NCBI RefSeq assembly: GCF_001955535.1
Contig: NZ_MPVN01000002.1
Span: 682,001 to 746,000 of the forward strand
Length of the DNA stretch: 64,000 bases
From: Paenibacillus sp. FSL H7-0326
Lineage (GTDB): Bacteria > Bacillota > Bacilli > Paenibacillales > Paenibacillaceae
Reading direction: 5' to 3'
In this document: piece by piece, positions 8,851 to 39,032 of the stretch
Position numbering within the stretch: the first letter of the stretch is position 1
How the letters are laid out: the number at the start of each line of letters is the position of its first letter
Notes under the pieces: model-generated
Seen by the model: only the letters and a program-made list of their open reading frames with translations
The model's database searches: none
Told to the model about the DNA's origin: nothing
Made by a program: the position numbers and the translations under genes

Positions 8851-9125
8851 TGTGCATTCCTCCTAAGATAGTTATACCCATATTATCTGCCACATTAAAC
8901 TTACTCACTCATTTCTTCATATTCATCACGAATGTTTAAACTCCAGCCGAATTGGTTTATTTAACTTTAAGATATTTTTTTCTGGATTATTGTAGAAATT
9001 TAGAACTAGTTCTGATAGACTATTCGTAGACATGAAAGTGAAAAAAGATGTGATAAAACAACCAGTTTGCAATGTAATTAGACCTGATTCATTACATTAA
9101 TCACTGGCATAGGGAGAATAGGCTT

Positions 9126-10410: not shown

Positions 10411-11481
10411 TTAATGGGCAGGCGCACTGTTCACTGCAATATCATCATATTCGTCATGAATATCTCCTACGATCTCTTCCAATATGTCTTCCATCGTAAC
10501 GAGCCCTGTAACTTGGCCGCTGGCATCGGTTACAAGTGCAATATGAACCCGATTCTGCTGCATTTTAGTAAGAACATCCTTAATGGGCGAGGTCTCCTTA
10601 AGACTTGGCATCGGATGAATAAAACCGTTCAGATCAAATTCTCTGCCTGCAGCAATGCTTGTCAGCATTTCTTTCGTGTTGATAAAGCCAAGATATTGCT
10701 CTTTATTCCCTTTATTAATAACAGGGTAACGGGTGTACTCATACTGATGAATGACCTCAAGTATGCTCTCAAGGGACATATCACTGCTAAAGGTAGCTAT
10801 TTTCCCTTTTGGAATCATGATCTCCTTCAATATGCGCTCATCAAAATCAAAAATATTCTTCAAATAATCAAGCTCTGTCTGATTAATTTCTCCACTCTCA
10901 TAGCTGTTGTTGACAATCAGCTTCAGTTCTTCCTCTGAATACACGGTATCATGACCTGCAGGCTTCACACCAAAAATCTTCAACAAGAGGCGAGCCGAAT
11001 TGTTCAGTGCAGTAATTACAGGATACATTATCTTACCGAACCAATACAGCGGACCTGCCAGCAGCAGAGTCATTCTCTCAGAGAACTGAATAGCCAGTGT
11101 CTTCGGAGCAAGCTCACCAATAACAACGTGCAGGAAGGAAACAACCGACAAGGCAATAACATAGGATAATACCGTCGATAGGGCTGCCGGCAGATTCCAG
11201 CTATCAAAAACCGGATGAAGCATTTTCTCGACTGTTGGTTCACCCAATGCACCCAGAACGAGCGCCGTAATCGTGATTCCCAGCTGACACGCCGATAGAT
11301 AATAATCCAGCTCATGTGCGACCTTTTTGGCTAGAACAGCCTTCTTGTTGCCTTCCGCAATCAATTGGTCGATCCGTGACATCCTCACCTTGAGAATCGC
11401 AAATTCAGCTCCAACGAAGAATGCTGTCAGTCCAATGAATACAGCTACCAAAAACAAATTTAATGCAATTGTTCCGTCCAA
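10411..11481 (-). CDS. CNNM/CBS membrane protein lacking CorC tail (TlyC family)
   Basis: 356-aa hemolysin-III/CNNM-type membrane protein, a family that includes Bacillus magnesium exporters such as MpfA. The N-terminal DUF21/CNNM domain (about 1-190) has four hydrophobic segments, e.g. ACQLGITITALVLGALGEP. Two CBS motifs follow (about 205-330), ending in TMEDILEEIVGDI. Unlike its neighbour it stops right after the CBS pair and has no CorC_HlyC domain. TTG start; AAGAGGG lies 6 nt upstream inside a hairpin, and GGAGGTGA lies before the hairpin. It is tandem with its paralog and probably arose by duplication. Confidence 0.88.
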   Translation of the reverse strand: MDGTIALNLFLVAVFIGLTAFFVGAEFAILKVRMSRIDQLIAEGNKKAVLAKKVAHELDYYLSACQLGITITALVLGALGEPTVEKMLHPVFDSWNLPAALSTVLSYVIALSVVSFLHVVIGELAPKTLAIQFSERMTLLLAGPLYWFGKIMYPVITALNNSARLLLKIFGVKPAGHDTVYSEEELKLIVNNSYESGEINQTELDYLKNIFDFDERILKEIMIPKGKIATFSSDMSLESILEVIHQYEYTRYPVINKGNKEQYLGFINTKEMLTSIAAGREFDLNGFIHPMPSLKETSPIKDVLTKMQQNRVHIALVTDASGQVTGLVTMEDILEEIVGDIHDEYDDIAVNSAPAH

Positions 11482-11513
11482 TGATTTCCCTCTTATAAGA
11501 GGGATTCACCTCC
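11479..11513 (-). promoter_or_regulatory. Hairpin-embedded ribosome site, shorter CNNM gene
   Basis: CCCTCTTATAAGAGGG (11488-11503) forms a self-complementary stem between GGAGGTGA (11506-11513) and the TTG start (11479-11481). The 3' arm is itself a ribosome-binding sequence. Confidence 0.6.
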
Positions 11514-11559
11514 AGAGTCCTATAGTATTTTACATATTTAAGATCTACAAAAAACAAAA

Positions 11560-12864
11560 TTATTGTTGAATTTTACTTAATACGACCTGCTTGATTTGGA
11601 AGTTATCCATCTCCTTGACCTTCCATACCTGCTCATCCTGTTCAACGACATCGCCTTCCTCAAGAGAAGCCCCCCGCTTGGATTGAATCCAGCCGGCAAT
11701 CGTATCTACCTCATCAGCTCCGTCAAATATGAAGCCGAATTGCTTCTCCAGCTCATCCAGTAAGACTCGGCCACTGATTAGATATTCGTTCTCTCCAAGC
11801 TGCTGGATGTCGGCCTTCTCATCACTGTCAAATTCATCGCGAATCTCGCCAACGATCTCCTCTAGAATATCCTCCATCGTTATAATCCCGGAAGTACCGC
11901 CGTATTCATCAATAACGACTGCCATATGCACCCTTTGCTGCTGCATTTTGATCATCGCTTCCTGAATTGGTGTAATTTCCGAGACATACGGCAGCTCACG
12001 CACAAATTCTTCAAGGCGATGCTCACTTCCGTCTACGATATGAGGGAGCATCTTCTTCACGTTGACTACACCGATAATTTTGTCCTTATCTCCAGCTTCA
12101 ACAACCGGATACCGTGAGTAATTATACTCATCAAAAATAGGAACAATATCTGCATAAACCATGTCGATATCGAGCGTTACCAGATCCACACGCGGAACCA
12201 TGATGTCTTTCGCGTCCCGTTCATCAAAGGAAAATACATTTTCCATATAAGCAAGCTTTGTCTGATTGATCTCGCCGCCTTCGTAGCTCTGATTCATGAT
12301 GATCTTGATCTCATCCTCAGAATACGCCTGTTCGTGACCCGCTGGCTTAACCCCGAAAGCACGCAGCATAACGCGTGAAGAACCGTTCAATGCCCAAATG
12401 AATGGGGACATGATCTTACCGAACCAATAGAGAGGTGCTGCGAGCAGCAAGGTCATCTTCTCCGCAAATTGGATCGCCAATGTCTTCGGTGCCATTTCAC
12501 CTACAACCACGTGCAGGAAGGTAACTAAGATAAATGCAATCGCATAAGAAGCCACAGATGAAACAGCCTCGGACAAATCAAAGTAGTTAAACACCGGATA
12601 CAGCAGACTCTCAACAGCCGGTTTACCCAGCGCTCCTAGACCAAGTGCAGTAACCGTAATACCGAGCTGACAGGCTGACAAATAATAATCCAGATCTGTA
12701 GCTACTTTTTTGGCAACCACTGCTTTCTTGTTTCCTTCAGCGATAAGCTGATCGATACGCGACATCCGGATCTTAACTACAGCGAACTCAGCAGCAACGA
12801 AAAACGCAGTAAGCGCAAGTAATATGACAAGTAATATTAAATTGGTAAACGTGATAATGTCCAA
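11560..12864 (-). CDS. CNNM/CBS/CorC membrane protein (TlyC family)
   Basis: 434-aa full-length member of the CNNM (DUF21)-CBS-CorC_HlyC family, linked to divalent cation (Mg2+, Co2+) efflux or homeostasis. Order: CNNM domain about 1-190 (KPAGHEQAYSEDEIK marks its end), CBS pair about 205-335 with VVIDEYGGTSGIITMEDILE, then the CorC_HlyC FAD-like domain (about 350-430, NEYLISGRVLLDELE and DTIAGWIQ). It starts at TTG with the same hairpin/ribosome-site arrangement as the paralog downstream, 78 nt away. The transported ion is inferred from family only. Confidence 0.92.
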   Translation of the reverse strand: MDIITFTNLILLVILLALTAFFVAAEFAVVKIRMSRIDQLIAEGNKKAVVAKKVATDLDYYLSACQLGITVTALGLGALGKPAVESLLYPVFNYFDLSEAVSSVASYAIAFILVTFLHVVVGEMAPKTLAIQFAEKMTLLLAAPLYWFGKIMSPFIWALNGSSRVMLRAFGVKPAGHEQAYSEDEIKIIMNQSYEGGEINQTKLAYMENVFSFDERDAKDIMVPRVDLVTLDIDMVYADIVPIFDEYNYSRYPVVEAGDKDKIIGVVNVKKMLPHIVDGSEHRLEEFVRELPYVSEITPIQEAMIKMQQQRVHMAVVIDEYGGTSGIITMEDILEEIVGEIRDEFDSDEKADIQQLGENEYLISGRVLLDELEKQFGFIFDGADEVDTIAGWIQSKRGASLEEGDVVEQDEQVWKVKEMDNFQIKQVVLSKIQQ

Positions 12865-13990: not shown

Positions 13991-14060
13991 TCGTGTTCAT
14001 CTTCCTTTGACTCCATAGTGGATGTTGTTTCCTTTCTACCATTAGGATACCCAAATGCGA

Positions 14061-14102
14061 AAAAAATAGCCGCAAGATGAAATTTAATCAAGCGGCCCTT
14101 TT
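14061..14102 (-). terminator. Terminator of the exporter operon
   Basis: Imperfect stem GGCCGCTTGA / TCTTGCGGCT with a T7 run on the minus strand, 12 nt after the stop of the solute-binding-protein gene. Confidence 0.75.
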
Positions 14103-14113
14103 GATCATTTTAT

Positions 14114-15589
14114 TTAGTTTGCACCTAATTTATCCTCGAAGCTCGCCTTCGGATCTGTCTTCAGCTTCTGCAGCATTTCATTTCCATCCTGCTCCCAGGC
14201 TTTCAGTGCTTCCTTCGGTGTCTTCTTATTCTCTACAACTTCATTGAAGTATTTCTGCCCCACGGAGTCTACCTGCCATAGATTCGGCATCTTCTGGTAC
14301 AGTGTGTTCATATCCGTGCTTGTCGGGGGTATCGGCTTTAATGTGTAGAAAGCGGCAATGTTATAATCTAGTCCTTCCTTAGGCTGGATATAGCTCTTCC
14401 GTGACACCATCTCATAGCTGCTCCTTGCCTTGACCTTAGCCCATTCTTCACCGTTCAGAAACTTAATGAATTCCCATGCATCCTCTGGATTTTGAGCATT
14501 GCTGTTAATGGCCATCAGGCTGCTTAAATATACACTCCCGCCAATGCCCGGTTTCTCCTGATGTACAGGAGGAGTCACTACATCCCAATCAATCGGGTCA
14601 AACTTATCATCCGTTTCAGCGTACTTGTTATCATTAATCAGCCTTGTGACATAACTGTAGTCCGAAACAACCATAGCGAGCTTTCCTTCCATAAACATAT
14701 TGCCTTGAAAAGGATTGAACTCGGTCTGCTCCGTTTGATATTCAAACATCTCCTGACCAGGCACAATTTTGTCCCGAGCCAGAGTAGCCACAGTATCCCA
14801 CACTCTCTCCCAGGAATCATTGTTGACTGTCATCGTTTCCGCCTTGTCATCAAAGGTACGCAGCTGCAATGGACCAGCATACATTTGAACATTGTAGAAC
14901 GGATCTCCGGCATATTGACTAAAGGAGAAGCCGTAAACCCGATCCTTGCCTTCACCACTCGTTACACGTCTTGCAAGATCAAATATATCTTCCCAAGTCG
15001 CTCCATCCGCCGGTGGTTCGACCCCGGCCTTTTGAAAAATCGCTTTGTTATAAAACAATGCAGAGGATGAAAAAGTAGGTGTCAGTGCATACAAGTTGTT
15101 ATCTCCCATATCCTTGATCCCATCCAGCACAGTCGGCACAATATCCGTCGTATCAAACTCATCCTCGGCAATAAGCGGATCAAGCTGTGTCAGCATATTT
15201 TCCTGAATAAGCGACTTTAAGAGAGAGGTATCTCCGACAATGACATCCACTGGATTCTCGCCGGTCATCAGCTTCTTGACTGCTTCCAAGGTGTCTGGCT
15301 GCTCTGGCTGTTCATTCTTGGTATAGTCGAAATATTGATACTGATCCTGGTCTACTGCAGGTACAATTTCGATCGTTATATTGTCATTCAGCACCTCAAA
15401 AATATCCGTATACTGCTGTCTAAAATAGGTGTCATCATTACTTCCGTACACGGTCCCGATTCGAAGCACTCTCTCCTCTTGATCTTCAGATGGTTCATTA
15501 GAAGTACATGCTGCAAGAAGTGGGGTCAGCAAAGTCATACATGTCAGCATAGCGATGACGGGTCGACTAAATACAGATTTCTTTATCAT
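14114..15589 (-). CDS. Family-1 extracellular solute-binding lipoprotein
   Basis: 491-aa lipoprotein; lipobox LLAAC (Cys about 28) after a basic-hydrophobic signal. The mature part has the periplasmic-binding-protein type II layout of sugar-type family 1: VLRIGTVYGS start, PVDVIVGDTS, ALFYNKAIFQKAGVEPP hinge segment, AYEFIKFLNG-like AWEFIKFLNGEEWAK near residue 375. The start at 15589 has AAAGGGAG 7 nt upstream; the ATG two codons earlier is too close. It is the last gene of the exporter operon, 21 nt after ATPase 2. No MalF/G-type permease is adjacent, so its partner is presumably the MacB-like complex; the ligand is unknown. Confidence 0.88.
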   Translation of the reverse strand: MIKKSVFSRPVIAMLTCMTLLTPLLAACTSNEPSEDQEERVLRIGTVYGSNDDTYFRQQYTDIFEVLNDNITIEIVPAVDQDQYQYFDYTKNEQPEQPDTLEAVKKLMTGENPVDVIVGDTSLLKSLIQENMLTQLDPLIAEDEFDTTDIVPTVLDGIKDMGDNNLYALTPTFSSSALFYNKAIFQKAGVEPPADGATWEDIFDLARRVTSGEGKDRVYGFSFSQYAGDPFYNVQMYAGPLQLRTFDDKAETMTVNNDSWERVWDTVATLARDKIVPGQEMFEYQTEQTEFNPFQGNMFMEGKLAMVVSDYSYVTRLINDNKYAETDDKFDPIDWDVVTPPVHQEKPGIGGSVYLSSLMAINSNAQNPEDAWEFIKFLNGEEWAKVKARSSYEMVSRKSYIQPKEGLDYNIAAFYTLKPIPPTSTDMNTLYQKMPNLWQVDSVGQKYFNEVVENKKTPKEALKAWEQDGNEMLQKLKTDPKASFEDKLGAN

Positions 15590-15610
15590 TCCCATTCTCC
15601 CTTTCTATGG

Positions 15611-16465
15611 TTACTTAGGCTGCGTAATGACGATACGCTCACCATCAAACTCAAGAGTAGCCCGATTATCAATAGACAGCGCTTCTAAATACTCTCTCGG
15701 CACTTGAAGACGGCCTGCTCGATCGATAATGACAAACGCTTCATGCACCTCGCTCATGCCTGGAACAACCTCTGTGTCCAAATTGGCGTTGCGTTTCACA
15801 AATTCGGTGCTGGTAAGCCCGTCACGAATAGCAACAATTCGGTCTACCTTATTAGCTAGGGCCAGATCATGAGTGACAATGACAACACTGACGGCCAGTT
15901 CCCGATTGAGCTTGCGAAATATATCCATGATCCGGTCGCTTGTCTCGCTGTCAACAGAACCTGTAGGTTCATCAGCAAGGAGCAGACTCGGCCGATTGGC
16001 CAGAGAGATCGCAATAGCGACCCGCTGCTGCTCTCCCCCTGATAATTGCTGAAGTCTGCTGTGCATTCGGTGCTCAAGCCCTACCCATTCAAGCAGCTGT
16101 TTTGCATAGCTCCGATCATATTTCCCCCCAAGCATCATCGGTGTTTCCACATTTTCGAGAGCTGTCATGTAGGGAAGCAAATTCCGGCCATTGTTCTGCC
16201 AGATAAAGCCGACGGTGTGTCTCTTGTATTCCACAAGCTGTGCTTCGGTCATCTTGAGCAGATCCCAATCTCCCACAACCGCTGTTCCAGCAGAAGGACG
16301 ATCCAGCCCCCCCAGGATATTAAGCAGTGTTGATTTGCCGCTGCCGCTGTTGCCAATAATGGCCATCATCTCACCATCTTCGACAGTCAGGTTCAGACCT
16401 TGAAGAGCTACCACTTCAACCTCGCTGGTTTTATAAATCTTGACCAATCCTTCGCAGTGAATCAT
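15611..16465 (-). CDS. ABC ATPase (MacB/LolD type) with AbrB-like C-terminal extension
   Basis: 284 aa. Residues 1-225 are a MacB-type ATPase: Walker A GNSGSGKST, signature LSGGEQQRVAIA, Walker B LLLADEPTGSVD, switch His in VIVTHD. Residues about 237-284 form an extra domain, FVIIDRAGRLQVPREYLEAL then NRATLEFDGERIVI. Its spacing (DRAGRLQVP, then a polar helix, then ERIVI) matches the AbrB/SpoVT swapped-hairpin fold. Usual MacB-type ATPases end near 220-230 aa. It starts at ATG 16465, overlapping the permease stop region by a TGATATG junction, and works with the permease next to it. Confidence 0.88.
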   Translation of the reverse strand: MIHCEGLVKIYKTSEVEVVALQGLNLTVEDGEMMAIIGNSGSGKSTLLNILGGLDRPSAGTAVVGDWDLLKMTEAQLVEYKRHTVGFIWQNNGRNLLPYMTALENVETPMMLGGKYDRSYAKQLLEWVGLEHRMHSRLQQLSGGEQQRVAIAISLANRPSLLLADEPTGSVDSETSDRIMDIFRKLNRELAVSVVIVTHDLALANKVDRIVAIRDGLTSTEFVKRNANLDTEVVPGMSEVHEAFVIIDRAGRLQVPREYLEALSIDNRATLEFDGERIVITQPK

Positions 16466-16466
16466 A

Positions 16467-19427
16467 TCAGCGCTCCTCTCCCATCTTCACAGCCTGATGT
16501 ACTCTGAGTCTGCGAATTTGCCATAACAGCATCACTGCTCCAATGAAGAGCATGACTCCGGTTACGATATACAGCTGATTCGTATCACTGGCTTCGAACA
16601 CGATCCGGAACGGAGGCACCTGAGTCTCTACATTATCTGTCGTCTGCAGGAATGGAAGAAACATTCTGCTGGCCAGCTGACCTATACCGATCCCTAGTGC
16701 TATGGATAACCCTGCCGTAAATACCTGTTCGAGCAGCAGCATCCCGCTCAGCTGACCTCTGGAGAGTCCCATCGCCCTCAGCACACCAAACTGAACGACT
16801 CTGCCTGACAGATTGAAGAACCAATACAGTACATAACCAATTAATGAAATAATAATGGAAACAAGAAATCCAAGGCTTAATATTCCAAAAACTCCGCCTC
16901 GCGAAGGATGCTTGCTCTCTGCAACAAGCTCGGTACGTACATCCTTTACAGAGGACAATTCGATCCCTGCATCGGCTAACTCCGTCATCAGAGGAGCAAC
17001 TAAAGCATCGGGCTCCATCTTGAGCCACACCTCGTATGGAATCATCGGAACCTGGTCGTAGATATAATCCAAATTGGCAATGAAGAATGGTGTCTGATCC
17101 GGGTATTGTGCCGGCCAGTATGGCAGAATACCAAATACAACAAATTCGATCATCTGCTCCTGTAGAGCAATGGAAACAATGTCTCCACTTTCCAGCTGAT
17201 ATTTCTCCGCAAGATTGGAAGGAATAATGACGGCCCCTTCATAATGACCAAGCAGATCAAGATAACGATTCGGATGAGCTGGAAATAGATCATTACGGAA
17301 CCAGGCCACCTCGGCAAAATCTACATTATCGATGCCTACAATCATTCCCTGACCTGCTGATTTACCCGAGACAATGACATTCCCTTTGGTTTGCAGAACC
17401 CTGGCAGCGTGCTCTACGCCTGGCAGCTGCCTGAATACTTCAAAAGGCGGCTCAGAGTATATCATTCTACCAGGTGCTGCGCCGCCTCCACCCGGGCCCG
17501 GATTCCCTCCACCGCCGGAATTGCCCCCGCCTCCTGGACTTCCACCGGGATTGCCGCCTGTATTTCCTCCATTGTTATTTCCTCCCCCGCCAGAACTGCC
17601 CCCAGGCTCGTTCGGGTTGCCTCCCCCTCCCGAATTTCCTCCGTTGACTGGAGTCAATTCAGGGGACCCTTCCCATACCGTCTGCATAACGACATCCGTC
17701 CCATATTCATACAGCGTACGTTCTGTGGAGTTCAGATCAATGGTTCTTGCAGCAGATGCATTGTACACACCCAGTCCCAGAGTCAATACAAGCAGGATCA
17801 TAAGCGGGTAATAAGAAGATGAAGACCGAGAGAGCTGAGTCAGCGTTAGATAGAGTGGAACCGGAAAAATTTTGCGGCCGATCCACTGGATCAGTTTGAG
17901 AATCAACGGAAATAACCTCAAAAAGAACAGACCCATAGCAAATATTGCGATGGCGGGCACAAAAAATAAAAATGGCTGCACCTGCAATTGATCGGTTGTC
18001 ATTCCTGTTTGAAAGGTGAGCATCTGGCGTTCGTAGAACAGATAGTAGCCGTACCCAGAAATACCGAGCAATAAAATATCGAGATACCACCGCTGCCATA
18101 TCGGCTTACGATCACTTCTCGCCTGTCGGCGCTTGGCATCCACAATTGTCGCTCTTGCATAATTAATTGCCGGAATAACGGAAGCGATCATGGACGCAAT
18201 TACCGCAACAAGGCCTAGCCAGAGTGCATCCTGCGTTACACCTACAGGTATGGCTTTGCGATCAACGAACTCCAGGAATCCGCTGGCAGACCCTATGCTC
18301 TTCGCCATAAACCAGCCAAGAAATGGACCTGCCATCATAGCTGCCGCGCCGAGTATTAGACCCTCCAGCAAATACAATAAAATAATCTGTCTGGCCGATG
18401 CTCCCCGGCTCCGCAGAACAGCAATATCACTCTCCTGCTTCTGAAGCGATTGTCTTGCGTTCATGACGATAAAATAGAAGACCATGGCAATCATCGGAAC
18501 CGCAAGTGTGAACAGCATGGTCTGCAGCTGCAAGCTCTGGGCTCTAAAGTTAGCAAGCAAATCACCGAAGGAGATATCGACTTTGGTGTCCTTTAATCGT
18601 TGATACAGTTCGATATCCAACCGTTCGAGTGTTCTTCCTAGACCTGGAAGCTGGCTCGTTTGAATCTCACCCAGATCAAAGGCGTAGTACCATCTGGAGG
18701 TCTGAAGCGGAACACCTTTTTCACTCAGCAAATACGTATTCATCACTTCCGGATCAATATACAGTCCATTCATCATTCCTTCAAATCCCTGGAACCAATA
18801 AGGATCGGTCAGATCATCCGGAGTAAAAACACCAGTAATTTTGACCCTCAGCGTCAGATCAAGCCCGCTGTATACCGGATATTCCAGGATGTCACCGACA
18901 TGCAGGTCGTTTCGATACATACCTTCCTCAAGCATCGCTGCCTCAATCACGTTATCCCGCACCTGATTGCCTGGCATAACACCTTGAGTCACTGTTACAT
19001 GATCTTCTAAATCAGTCATTGAGCCAGCGGTCATGGTCCTGATTCTGCTGGCGTCAACTTTGGTAGGATCTTCAGGACTAACTTCCGTGCTGCGGATCGT
19101 ACGGACGTTAAGATAAGTATTGTGATCGAAGCCGATGCTGCTCGAAACATCTTCCCTAATATATCGATCCACTTCGTTCAGCGAGGCAAGGTCTGTCTTC
19201 GTTCCTCCTGCCGCCTGATAGCTCATGAGCAGAGAACCTGCAGGCATACCACTGCTCTCTTCTTCCAAAGACTGAGCGACGACACGCTTTAACGCTCCAT
19301 CTGCATACATGGGGATGCTGACGGTGAAACCTACAGCCACAATAAGACCAAGCAAGGTGCTTAGCGTGAGCCATCTGGTGTTCCACATTTTTCGAGCCAA
19401 GAGGCGCAACAAGGGCATTCCTTTCAT
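16467..19427 (-). CDS. Large FtsX/MacB-family ABC permease with Gly-rich insert
   Basis: 986-aa permease. One N-terminal helix (about 16-36), an extracytoplasmic domain (about 37-305), a three-helix FtsX core (about 310-430), more helices near 460-560, a second extracytoplasmic domain, and the last FtsX core (about 870-975, with FGVLRAMGLSRGQL). Between about residues 594 and 650 lies a low-complexity Gly/Asn/Pro run starting after ELTPVNGG. Duplicate FtsX cores in one chain are typical of MacB-like exporters acting on extracytoplasmic substrates (mechanotransmission). Start and adaptor stop overlap as TAATG. Confidence 0.9.
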   Translation of the reverse strand: MKGMPLLRLLARKMWNTRWLTLSTLLGLIVAVGFTVSIPMYADGALKRVVAQSLEEESSGMPAGSLLMSYQAAGGTKTDLASLNEVDRYIREDVSSSIGFDHNTYLNVRTIRSTEVSPEDPTKVDASRIRTMTAGSMTDLEDHVTVTQGVMPGNQVRDNVIEAAMLEEGMYRNDLHVGDILEYPVYSGLDLTLRVKITGVFTPDDLTDPYWFQGFEGMMNGLYIDPEVMNTYLLSEKGVPLQTSRWYYAFDLGEIQTSQLPGLGRTLERLDIELYQRLKDTKVDISFGDLLANFRAQSLQLQTMLFTLAVPMIAMVFYFIVMNARQSLQKQESDIAVLRSRGASARQIILLYLLEGLILGAAAMMAGPFLGWFMAKSIGSASGFLEFVDRKAIPVGVTQDALWLGLVAVIASMIASVIPAINYARATIVDAKRRQARSDRKPIWQRWYLDILLLGISGYGYYLFYERQMLTFQTGMTTDQLQVQPFLFFVPAIAIFAMGLFFLRLFPLILKLIQWIGRKIFPVPLYLTLTQLSRSSSSYYPLMILLVLTLGLGVYNASAARTIDLNSTERTLYEYGTDVVMQTVWEGSPELTPVNGGNSGGGGNPNEPGGSSGGGGNNNGGNTGGNPGGSPGGGGNSGGGGNPGPGGGGAAPGRMIYSEPPFEVFRQLPGVEHAARVLQTKGNVIVSGKSAGQGMIVGIDNVDFAEVAWFRNDLFPAHPNRYLDLLGHYEGAVIIPSNLAEKYQLESGDIVSIALQEQMIEFVVFGILPYWPAQYPDQTPFFIANLDYIYDQVPMIPYEVWLKMEPDALVAPLMTELADAGIELSSVKDVRTELVAESKHPSRGGVFGILSLGFLVSIIISLIGYVLYWFFNLSGRVVQFGVLRAMGLSRGQLSGMLLLEQVFTAGLSIALGIGIGQLASRMFLPFLQTTDNVETQVPPFRIVFEASDTNQLYIVTGVMLFIGAVMLLWQIRRLRVHQAVKMGEER

Positions 19428-20533
19428 TACCTTCCGACCACCTTCTGTCCGGGCGTCAGACCTTTGAGGATTTCAACATCCGTCGATGTCTGCTGACCTA
19501 CCTCAACGTCAACCTCCCTCTTGCTACCATCCGCCTCTACAACTTGTACATAAGTTCTGGATCCAATGGATCGAAGTGTAGAGATCGGTATTAAAACAGC
19601 ATTCTCCTTACGCTGAGTTACAATCGATACGGTAAGGGGGGTACCGCGATTTAAGCCTTTAGGCCAATCATCCAGCTGAGCAATGACATATTGGTCCAGT
19701 GATTCCTGTGCAGGAGGTGTCCCTGCTCCTCCTTCTCCTCCAGAACCCGTTTCTTCGGCCAATTCCATAGGCATCACCTGAATGCTACCTGTGTGCGTAC
19801 CTGCCCCATTGATATCCACTTCAGCCTTCATTCCTTGTGCAATGACTTCCAGATCCTTCTTGGCAAAAGTAGCGGCAACAACGAGATTGGATGTGTCAGC
19901 AATAGTCGCAATCGGATCGTATGCCTTCACAGCAGCTCCTTTTTCCACCTGAACACTCAGCACGGTGCCTGCAAAAGGGGCTGACAGCGTTGATTTGCCT
20001 ACCTGCTCCTCCAGATCGGCCAGTTCCTGTCTTTGCTCTTCAAACGTAATTACAGCTTCTTCATATTCGACAGGGTCCATCTCGTCTTTTTTGCGGAGTG
20101 TCTCCTTCATCTGAACTTCCGCTTTTCGAATCTGCAGCTTCTTCTGGCGAATCTGCTTCTCCAGCTCCTCCACATCCAGCACAGCAATTTGCTGTCCAGC
20201 CTTTATCTTATCTCCCGGTTTGACGAACAGCTCCTTGATGTGCATGCCATCCAGTGTAAAATAAACCTTCTCCTCTCTCTGACTCATCAGCTTGCCGGAA
20301 CCCGAAACCTTGGTTTCAATCGTTTCTGTACGAACCTCATATTCCGGTTTCTTGGATATGGTCGGCGGTGTGATCGGGGGTAGTACCTCCTCTTCTGGTT
20401 CTGCCGGTAGTAAGGAACAGCCGCTGAGCATAAGACCTGCTGCACCAACTAGTGCAATGCTCCGAAGGCGTCTCTTCCAGCTGGTATAGGATTCGTTATG
20501 TAATGAATTTACCGTCCACCATCTCATGAACAT
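19427..20533 (-). CDS. HlyD/RND-type adaptor lipoprotein
   Basis: 368-aa membrane-fusion-type adaptor. The N-terminus carries a signal with lipobox MLSGC, so it is likely lipid-anchored outside the cell. Then come a barrel-sandwich start (VSGSGKLMSQREEKVYF, IKAGQQIAVLDVEELEKQI), an alpha hairpin (about 105-165), the second half of the lipoyl domain (TLSAPFAGTVLSVQVEKGAAV), and C-terminal beta domains ending GLTPGQKVV. ATG 20533 is chosen because TTGGAGG is 9 nt upstream; it overlaps the ATPase gene by 38 bp. It matches the YknX-like partner of MacB-type exporters in Gram-positives. Confidence 0.88.
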   Translation of the reverse strand: MFMRWWTVNSLHNESYTSWKRRLRSIALVGAAGLMLSGCSLLPAEPEEEVLPPITPPTISKKPEYEVRTETIETKVSGSGKLMSQREEKVYFTLDGMHIKELFVKPGDKIKAGQQIAVLDVEELEKQIRQKKLQIRKAEVQMKETLRKKDEMDPVEYEEAVITFEEQRQELADLEEQVGKSTLSAPFAGTVLSVQVEKGAAVKAYDPIATIADTSNLVVAATFAKKDLEVIAQGMKAEVDINGAGTHTGSIQVMPMELAEETGSGGEGGAGTPPAQESLDQYVIAQLDDWPKGLNRGTPLTVSIVTQRKENAVLIPISTLRSIGSRTYVQVVEADGSKREVDVEVGQQTSTDVEILKGLTPGQKVVGR

Positions 20534-21266
20534 GGTCTGCAACCTCCAAAATCGTAGGATCATGTGTCGTCATGCAGATCGTTACTTGCTCTGTTGCAAT
20601 CATATTTCGAAAAACGGCCATCACTTGTGCTCCCATCTTGGAATCAAGCTCTGCCGTTGGTTCATCCGCGAGCAGAAGCTTCGGGCGGTGTGCTATGGCC
20701 TTGGCTATTGCGACTCTCTGCTGCTCTCCGCCTGACAGCTCAAAGGGCCGGTGCTTCGCTCGTTTGGTAAGGCCCACCATATCAAGGCAATAAGCCACCC
20801 TCTCCTTCCATTCACTCCTTGGAACATTCGCCATCCGAAGGGACAGCTCTACATTTTCCCATGCAGACAGTAAGGGCATCAGAGCATACGCTTGAAAAAT
20901 AAACCCAATATCCTGTCGTCTGAGCTTGGTGCGACTCCCGTCTCCTGAATCATGCAGGGGCCTTCCATTAAAATAGATCTCACCACTGGTTGGCTGATCA
21001 AGGCCGCCCAGCATATTTAGCAAGGTCGTCTTCCCCGAGCCTGACCTTCCTTTCAGCATAACAAGCTGCTCCGCATGGACCTCTAGATCAATGCCTTTCA
21101 GTACATGAATCGCCTTCCCCCCCGTCTCAAAGCTGCGATGAACATTGCACACCTTAAGAACAGGCTCGCTAGATTCCAGCTGAGATGGATCCGAATCCGA
21201 GTGTCCTATAGACTCGTTCTTCTCTTCTATGCTGATCATCTCAAGAGAAGGCTCTCTCTCAGGCAA
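20496..21266 (-). CDS. ABC ATPase (MacB/LolD type), operon head
   Basis: 256-aa ATPase: Walker A GRSGSGKTT, signature ELSGGEQQRVAIA, Walker B LLLADEPTAELD, switch CMTTHDP. A Ser/Glu-rich N-terminal extension of about 35 residues precedes the ATPase core, which starts near VLKVCNVHRSF. The start is TTG 21266, with GGAGGAG 9 nt upstream; an internal ATG lacks a ribosome site. It is the first gene of a five-gene unit and presumably energises the same permease as the second ATPase, perhaps as a heterodimer. Confidence 0.88.
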   Translation of the reverse strand: MPEREPSLEMISIEEKNESIGHSDSDPSQLESSEPVLKVCNVHRSFETGGKAIHVLKGIDLEVHAEQLVMLKGRSGSGKTTLLNMLGGLDQPTSGEIYFNGRPLHDSGDGSRTKLRRQDIGFIFQAYALMPLLSAWENVELSLRMANVPRSEWKERVAYCLDMVGLTKRAKHRPFELSGGEQQRVAIAKAIAHRPKLLLADEPTAELDSKMGAQVMAVFRNMIATEQVTICMTTHDPTILEVADHVHEMVDGKFIT

Positions 21267-21480: not shown

Positions 21481-21506
21481 AAAAAAACGGCCCTCCGCAG
21501 GGCCGC
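21481..21506 (-). terminator. Terminator of the pyr operon
   Basis: Stem CGGCCCT / AGGGCCG with a GC-rich loop, followed by seven T on the minus strand, 22 nt after pyrE. Confidence 0.9.
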
Positions 21507-21527
21507 CTATCTATAGAACCTTTTATA

Positions 21528-38711: not shown

Positions 38712-38995
38712 AAAAATAAAAAAGCCCCGCCCCAAAAAGGGACGAGACTGTTCTCGCGTTACCACCCTAGTTCCGTCATCTGTCTGCATGTGACAAATAA
38801 ACGGCGCTCTAATCCTTATGTGACTGCCATAAGGAGCCGATGTAACGTTCGGCACACGGTTCGGCTTAATTGCAGCTGCTGCAGCATGCTTTCAGCTTCA
38901 CTTCTCCGGGATGATATTCAGCCATGGTCCGCTTTATTGGCTCGCACCTACCGCCAACTCTCTGTAAACGAATGCTCATGAGCTTACTGGTTCCC
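38712..38995 (-). promoter_or_regulatory. T-box riboswitch of ileS (Ile specifier)
   Basis: The minus strand carries the T-box core AGGGTGGTAACGCG (complement 38755-38768), a terminator CGTCCC/GGGGCG with a T-run (38712-38751), and stem I elements AGAGAGTTGG and GGTGCGAGCC near 38940-38965. The specifier loop reads GAATATCATCCC, giving AUC (Ile). Uncharged tRNA-Ile would open the antiterminator. It fills nearly the whole gap between divIVA and ileS. Confidence 0.92.
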
Positions 38996-39032
38996 ATCAT
39001 CAAACCTGTATTATAATTTACATATAACAATA

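Follow-up and report, generated by a model that had tools for sequence, protein, structure and literature searches.

Five closely packed genes on the minus strand of a 64,000-nucleotide (nt) stretch of Paenibacillus sp. FSL H7-0326 (contig NZ_MPVN01000002.1, positions 682,001–746,000; hereafter the window, in whose numbering coordinates are given) encode, in order, an ATP-binding cassette (ABC) ATPase (ABC1), an adaptor, an FtsX-type permease, a second ATPase (ABC2) and a family-1, sugar-type solute-binding protein (SBP). We lean slightly towards reading this locus as one type VII (mechanotransmission) ABC machine whose SBP binds a surface saccharide ligand. That the SBP is a working partner of the exporter we consider likely, and that it captures or senses a surface saccharide is a more tentative proposal; physical contact between SBP and exporter, the class of ligand and the direction of action are parts of this reading that we infer. 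We favor a single machine because of the linkage of the SBP gene to the exporter genes in relatives, the re-ordered paralogous operons, the SBP's own lineage, a second SBP lineage beside related exporters, the lipobox, the predicted folds and the neighboring genes. SBPs are usually regarded as a mark of importers, and the partners of well-studied type VII ABC systems are TolC, LolA, EnvC and TesA; to our knowledge, this class is not known to use sugar-binding proteins.

As called, the five genes are spaced, in gene order, by a 68 nt overlap, a 1 nt overlap (TAATG), a 1 nt gap and a 15 nt gap, with the start codons of ABC1 and the adaptor uncertain. Pfam assigns ABC_tran (8e-35) to ABC1, HlyD_D23 (2.8e-13) to the adaptor, FtsX (6.2e-22) and MacB_PCD (2.5e-9), each in two stretches, to the permease, ABC_tran (7.8e-32) to ABC2 and SBP_bac_1 (5.1e-26) to the SBP. 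Gene calls and Pfam thus agree with the initial annotation, which had described five overlapping or nearly abutting genes of these families.

Linkage of the binding protein to the exporter in relatives

Among 148 Paenibacillaceae genomes, the permease was found in 123 (E cut-off 1e-20) and the SBP in 134 (E cut-off 1e-40). Linkage was counted over the 121 family genomes with a listed place for the permease, and in 120 of them an SBP lies downstream of the permease on the same strand, which rules out that the five-gene unit is an artefact. The median distance from permease match to SBP is 934 nt (range 39–2316), leaving room for ABC2; some of the matches span only the first half of the permease. 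Two or three SBPs lie within 8 kb in at least 12 of the 120 linked genomes, and the unit is found right behind pyrE in several inspected genomes. In the two genomes whose permease is present and unplaced (G102 and G118), the permease belongs to the other branch described below, assigned by score and layout, outside the tree.

A class-level search for the permease in 348 genomes, from outside and inside the family, found it in 37, of which 17 lie outside the family. Eleven of these 17 were inspected, and all five genes are present in five of them (G148, G158, G185, G189 and G230, from four families, with one to four SBPs). Four inspected genomes of family f23 lack an adjacent SBP, and f23 groups in the permease tree with Brevibacillus parabrevis, which also has none. 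Three SBP_bac_8 proteins are encoded on the opposite strand beside the exporter of G453, and in G305 the contig ends after ABC2. Across 123 distinct permease loci, a chosen set and not a random one, the five genes occur in the window's order on one strand in at least 55; five-gene counts were made at a score limit of 200 and are therefore lower bounds. The gene layouts may undercount genes behind antisense frames, and 20 loci were re-examined. Named relatives (80 of 454 matches) include Hydrogenibacillus, Paenibacillus, Cohnella, Brevibacillus and a Spirochaetes metagenome-assembled genome (MAG), and this taxonomic breadth is a lower bound. The locus in the MAG (L206, 4988–9542) holds an adaptor, a permease and one ATPase, and may reflect a binning error or transfer.

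Paralogous operons, here called type II (L062, L064 and L106–L110), place the SBP upstream of ABC1. By Pfam, L109 and L064 have a response regulator and a kinase before the SBP and an extracytoplasmic function (ECF) sigma factor after ABC2, and the remaining type II operons are similar by gene size. L062 has ABC2, and L164 holds a partial SBP at the contig start. Linkage is thus retained in the family, in five genomes of four other families and in re-ordered paralogues, and the initial annotation, which would have fallen had the SBP gene been unlinked from the exporter genes in relatives, is not refuted on this point. L063 (7307–15338) has consecutive genes for three SBPs, an adaptor and a permease but lacks a matching ATPase alongside; its ATPases may be shared in trans.

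The initial annotation had also noted the lack of MalF/G-type permeases, the usual partners of family-1 SBPs. This held: a profile search found no MalF/G-like genes at window positions 9001–30000, so that the combination of SBP and MalF/G that marks a type I sugar importer is absent from the locus, and a six-frame profile search found none in 77 of 80 loci (75 distinct) with SBPs of this group. The three exceptions are L107, with a pair at distances of 2.9 and 3.8 kb on the same strand, L156, with genes on the opposite strand, and L063, with a match of E 5e-5 near a phosphate-transporter-like gene (by eye). Over all 128 permease loci, MalF/G-like genes occur in 16.

Group membership of SBPs was set at a score limit of 300, chosen after the scores were known. 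Linked SBPs score 344–746, orphans 428–671 and two unlinked copies in G017 374 and 386; non-group SBPs score 25–134, and the nearest SBPs of the window's own genome 141–159. In a carefully built SBP tree (72 rows; this and the other trees use chosen representatives), the 58 exporter-clade SBPs, linked and orphan, fall together with support 90/75, drawn open, and none of eight own-genome SBPs falls inside; long branches were flagged. A quick tree (54 rows) by the Shimodaira–Hasegawa-like approximate likelihood ratio test (SH-aLRT) gives 97 for 21 exporter-clade rows and places SBPs linked to a related branch of permeases ('type III') elsewhere, with own-genome SBPs L002, L004 and L005 (98). Exporter-linked SBPs thus appear, with moderate support from these sequences, to be a separate lineage. 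In a quick permease tree of 63 rows, an SBP-bearing branch (27 rows, support 99) has only L061, from G017, without an adjacent SBP, and the other branch (36 rows, support 99) comprises Brevibacillus, type III and others, many without SBP. Because two SBP lineages stand beside two permease branches, the trees, if correct, imply at least two separate acquisitions of sugar SBPs by this family of exporters. In L199 (5343–14987) and L203 (5199–15230), a MalF/G-like pair, a full exporter set and a sugar SBP are consecutive on one strand.

Predicted architecture of the exporter and the linked binding protein

The AlphaFold2 (AF2) model of the permease (49 sequences, mean predicted local distance difference test (pLDDT) 85.5) has ten helices laid out 4+2+4 and two outer domains (Table 1). 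Helices 1–5 are predicted at residues 18–56, 288–330, 345–379, 399–425 and 443–465, and helices 6–10 at 486–517, 536–575, 841–875, 890–930 and 946–973; the best 19-residue hydropathy is 1.76–2.54 in nine of them and a weak 0.94 in helix 443–465. The Gly-rich loop is disordered in the model, and the family consensus is Gly-rich there too. Foldseek's top match was Escherichia coli YbbP (9ge6, E 2.4e-20; 9ge7), followed by BceB, MacB and LolCDE. Whole-chain TM-scores to YbbP are 0.37 and 0.41 by query length, with 13% identity in the structural alignment; since these scores are modest, we take the likeness as a fold-class match. The sequence profile of the permease reaches only LolF/LolC/LolE (first), PsdB and MacB, weakly. 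Pfam found no ABC_tran domain in the permease, and the NCBIfam MacB model was not among its matches. We rejected MacB proper as its identity, as it has no fused ATPase domain and YbbP is closer. The label 'MacB-like' used in the initial annotation therefore suits the FtsX and MacB_PCD cores but is too narrow for one ten-helix chain that lacks an ATPase domain and matches YbbP best. Pfam and the model give the permease a type VII ABC (MacB superfamily) FtsX-fold core with extracytoplasmic domains and place it, as one chain, in the YbbP-like ten-helix group, and its fold suggests that it may act by mechanotransmission without transport across the membrane.

Both ATPases have, by eye, Walker A, signature (LSGGE in ABC1), Walker B and H-loop motifs. 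LolD models score best on both of them, and TIGR02211 gives 219.3 and 207 bits, below its equivalog cut-off of 307.75. ABC2 carries an AbrB-like C-terminal tail, which by motif is present in 106 of 109 ABC2 proteins versus 0 of 111 ABC1 proteins; the three ABC2 proteins without the motif comprise two divergent versions and one cut by a contig end. A tail profile, built from 26 of 43 identified tails, ranks the AbrB N-domains 2k1n and 1z0r first and second (E 2e-4), and single rows match Pfam weakly (E up to 1; MraZ 24/26, MazE 15/26). These matches suggest that the tail belongs to the AbrB/MazE/MraZ swapped-hairpin fold. ABC1 and ABC2 may pair as a heterodimer on one permease, and the tail presumably has a role in the machine. 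The adaptor matches HlyD_D23 and HlyD_3 in Pfam and passes the TIGR01730 RND_mfp model (119.1 bits, cut-off 94.9), which places it with the MacA/HlyD adaptors and their barrel-sandwich/lipoyl domains.

SBP_bac_1 scores 92.8 bits on the SBP (gathering score 26). The SBP model (72 sequences, pLDDT 91.5) has a two-lobed fold and matches sugar-binding SBPs, and the SBP profile aligns over most of its length, core motifs included, with sugar binders (4rk2, 5f7v Lmo0181 and 1eu8). A lipobox-like motif was found in 95 of 95 exporter-linked SBPs, 90 by pattern and five by eye past over-long predicted starts, from which a lipid anchor is predicted. Two patterns near N412–P421 were considered as a signature of exporter SBPs. 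The first occurs in 21/24 SBPs at the pyrE site, 5/11 from other families, 0/11 of type II, 6/12 orphans and 23/43 named exporter SBPs, versus 0/43 other SBPs, and the second in 18/24, 2/11, 3/11, 7/12 and 16/43, respectively, versus 0/43. Since both patterns are partial, we claim no such signature.

Table 1. Predicted features of the five-gene unit and its borders, in window coordinates (aa, amino acids)
Feature	Position	Strand	Basis
ABC1, first ATPase, 256 aa from TTG (start uncertain), no AbrB-like tail	20496..21266	-	Pfam, motifs
Adaptor lipoprotein, HlyD/RND_mfp type, 378 aa (start uncertain), lipobox LSGC by eye	19427..20563	-	TIGR01730
Permease, 986 aa, two FtsX cores, two outer domains, ten long helices	16467..19427	-	Pfam, AF2, Foldseek
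Gly/Asn/Pro-rich low-complexity loop, second outer domain, residues about 595–655	17463..17645	-	pLDDT <50 at 595–649
ABC2, second ATPase, 284 aa, catalytic motifs by eye	15611..16465	-	Pfam, motifs
ABC2 C-terminal tail, AbrB/MazE/MraZ-like	15614..15742	-	Profile match, motif
SBP, family-1 sugar-type lipoprotein, 493 aa, lipobox LAAC, Cys30	14114..15595	-	SBP_bac_1, predicted fold
Terminator-like hairpin between pyrE and five-gene unit	21485..21508	-	Consensus scan
Terminator-like hairpin and T run 3' of SBP gene	14058..14112	-	Fold z -3.72; missed by consensus scan

YbbP has two outer domains. YbbAP–TesA is a type VII ABC system with a single-chain permease of 10 membrane helices, one ATPase in two copies (2:1:1) and a soluble, extracytoplasmic hydrolase partner (PMC12646458). 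The unit shares with it the single-chain ten-helix permease, its best Foldseek match; it differs in having two different ATPase genes instead of two copies of one ATPase, and an SBP and adaptor in place of a hydrolase partner, with no hydrolase among the five proteins. Like MacAB–TolC and YknXYZ, it combines an FtsX permease with MacB-like core domains and a HlyD/MacA-type adaptor, and Gram-positive YknXYZ-like systems are laid out as an adaptor with an FtsX exporter (PMC5985334); unlike them the unit lacks a fused ATPase, its fused double permease has two more helices, its second ATPase bears an AbrB-like tail, and it includes an SBP lipoprotein. BceAB is likewise a Gram-positive system with a ten-helix FtsX permease, and the next-best structural match (PMC11466899), but BceB has one extracellular domain, whereas two outer domains, an adaptor and an SBP are found here. 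LolCDE resembles the unit in its type VII fold and LolD-like ATPases, and hands over to the soluble partner LolA; here, in contrast, the permease is one chain, the partner a sugar-type SBP, and there is no outer membrane. Importer family-1 SBPs such as 4rk2, 5f7v and 1eu8 share fold and core motifs with our SBP, which differs in its separate lineage, its linkage to a type VII exporter and the lack of MalF/G at its locus. We class the unit among type VII ABC systems, as a variant with a YbbP-like fold that is distinct from MacAB, BceAB and LolCDE. Type VII systems work on partners outside the cytoplasm (PMC5985334, PMC12646458, PMC11466899); Bacillus subtilis YtrF is termed a solute-binding protein in PMC7828314 but appears among the type VII permeases in PMC11466899. 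Among the papers listed in a literature search that did not extend to most subscription journals, none dealt, by title and abstract opening, with a type VII ABC unit that includes an SBP or with an AbrB-like tail on an ATPase of such a unit.

A working model and its alternatives

In the machine that we envisage, two different ATPases would power the single-chain permease, which has two outer domains and roughly ten helices. At the permease's outer face would sit the SBP lipoprotein and the MacA-like adaptor, tethered to the membrane. The SBP would bind a surface ligand that bears saccharide, and the permease, moved by ATP, would act either on the SBP once loaded or on its presented ligand, resulting in capture, release to the adaptor, or signaling to surface proteins. 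TesA with YbbP, LolA with LolCDE and EnvC with FtsX would be analogues. If this holds, type VII machines gain a subunit that binds ligand and whose specificity is amenable to standard ligand screening, and the substrate question of several Gram-positive type VII exporters becomes directly testable. It would also caution against annotating every SBP as importer-bound, given an operon, nearly universal in one bacterial family, that joins an SBP and a type VII ABC system.

Several observations weigh against this model. In 8 of 8 inspected genomes of genera g13 and g7, the SBP lies behind pyrE and exporter genes are absent: all five g13 genomes with an SBP match (L065, L101, L102, L212 and L213) and three inspected of the eight g7 genomes with a match (L208–L210; the g7 SBPs, L212 and L213 belong to the group by score, outside the trees). 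These SBP genes lie 0.2 to 2.1 kb behind pyrF–pyrE on the same strand, and tblastn found no exporter genes in the pyrE stretches. A diverse permease profile (A6) had no match in G061, G071, G007, G013 and G074 and only short weak matches in G108, G053 and G094; for G110, absence is taken from the family search at E 1e-20 alone. The three g7 SBPs without exporter retain the lipobox. More broadly, the 25 family genomes without permease at that cut-off comprise 13 with and 12 without an SBP match. Conversely, G017 has an exporter without adjacent SBP, with its two group-scoring SBPs elsewhere, and 5 of 5 inspected Brevibacillus-type loci (L057, L058, L059, L069 and L198) carry a four-gene exporter with no adjacent SBP. 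Type III permeases also occur without any SBP (e.g. L173, L175 and L182), and L199, L203 and L194 have a sugar SBP beside a related exporter plus MalF/G-like genes. Exporter and importer SBPs are separated with moderate support, on long branches.

As the exporter is present in most other genera, we suggest that g13 and g7 lost it rather than never having it. Standing at the pyrE site without an exporter, the SBP there either has or has acquired a separate function. None of the five g13 SBPs has a lipobox, and an AWA-type signal end is found instead; in g13 the lipoprotein thus seems to have become a secreted protein. This anchor change was probably one evolutionary event, and as such is suggestive only. 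The initial annotation had proposed a sensing, substrate-capturing or mechanotransmitting system in place of a standard drug pump. The YbbP-type fold and some of the neighbors fit this proposal; the SBPs without exporter and the Brevibacillus-type exporters without SBP do not.

The canonical sugar-binder fold and motifs of the SBP are what an orphan receptor would have if it served a MalF/G-type importer encoded elsewhere, its operon being shared with the exporter through a common condition. Orphan SBP copies elsewhere in several genomes agree with such a receptor, and because the SBP occurs without exporter at the pyrE site and MalF/G-like genes stand beside three related exporters, we regard it as unlikely rather than negligible. 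Against it are linkage that persists despite re-ordering, an SBP lineage of its own, the presence of MalF/G-like genes in just three of the 80 loci and the g13 orphans, which lack a lipid anchor.

The SBP, perhaps with the immunoglobulin (Ig)-like protein described below, could instead be cargo; a Lol-like machine would then extract surface lipoproteins and S-layer-associated proteins, or deliver them. Both ATPases score best against LolD models, if below cut-off, the permease profile matches LolF, LolC and LolE chains first, and secreted proteins recur next to the exporter. We nevertheless hold this to be improbable, since the permease structure is closest to YbbP and then BceB, the g7 SBP keeps its lipobox without an exporter, these Gram-positives have no outer membrane as a destination, and the SBP has conserved core motifs. 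We give similarly little credence to an ordinary YknXYZ-like exporter of peptides or drugs in which the SBP would be a passenger or drug sensor. Adaptor plus FtsX is a layout typical of Gram-positive systems (PMC5985334), L109 and L064, both paralogous operons, have two-component system genes together with one for an ECF sigma factor, and an RND pump gene is next in L130; yet two ATPases, a fused ten-helix permease, an AbrB-like tail and an SBP are foreign to that layout, and the unit is nearly universal in the family (123/148) and stands right behind pyrE in several inspected genomes. Returning to the single SBP-dependent machine, it is possible, and we propose it with reserve, that Bacillota have a class of such type VII machines, marked by sugar SBPs recruited at least twice and an AbrB-tailed ATPase, that capture, sense or place surface glycans, with one genus having lost the exporter and its freed SBP having become secreted.

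Neighboring genes and other features of the window

The surface-glycan neighbors reported here are examples, not a counted enrichment. A secreted Ig-like protein is encoded after the SBPs in at least 11 of at least 55 five-gene loci, a count from which the score limit of 200 leaves out L053 and L056, where the protein is present. It is homologous among L051, L053, L055 and L056 and resembles DUF4352 (below cut-off in exporter loci, above it in the window's own genome); 138 of the 148 family genomes encode a homologue. Large secreted-looking proteins flank it on both sides in six of nine inspected Paenibacillaceae Ig-like loci (L116, L117, L118, L122, L123 and L127), with metK nearby, by eye, in all but L116. 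In L116 (7925–10726), from the window's own genome and the only one of these whose neighbors were searched, the homologue lies between two SLH-domain proteins. In L119 (7514–13589) and L120 (6942–10686), from genomes without the ten-helix exporter, the Ig-like protein is next to an adaptor gene, joined in L119 by an ATPase and a single-core MacB permease.

Two SLH proteins are encoded within the exporter unit of L054, and SLH proteins, an esterase-like protein and a Gfo/Idh oxidoreductase beside that of L168; L199 has an apiosidase-like protein alongside. In L214 (10283–14392) and L215 (9470–13572), which hold related exporters, the gene directly after ABC2 encodes a protein of ~1060 aa; its xylanase domains (GH10-GH43-CBM) are known from L214, where the gene begins 33 nt after ABC2. 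Neighbors are of amino-acid type instead in L173 (a Cys/Met pyridoxal phosphate (PLP) enzyme).

Downstream of the hairpin at the SBP end are two tRNA-Met genes. Elsewhere in the window, two tandem, similar open reading frames (ORFs) of 356 and 434 aa at 10411–12864 encode membrane proteins, which we take to resemble hemolysin/CorC-type proteins, and a T-box leader at 38735–39009 on the minus strand precedes a 1029-aa ORF.

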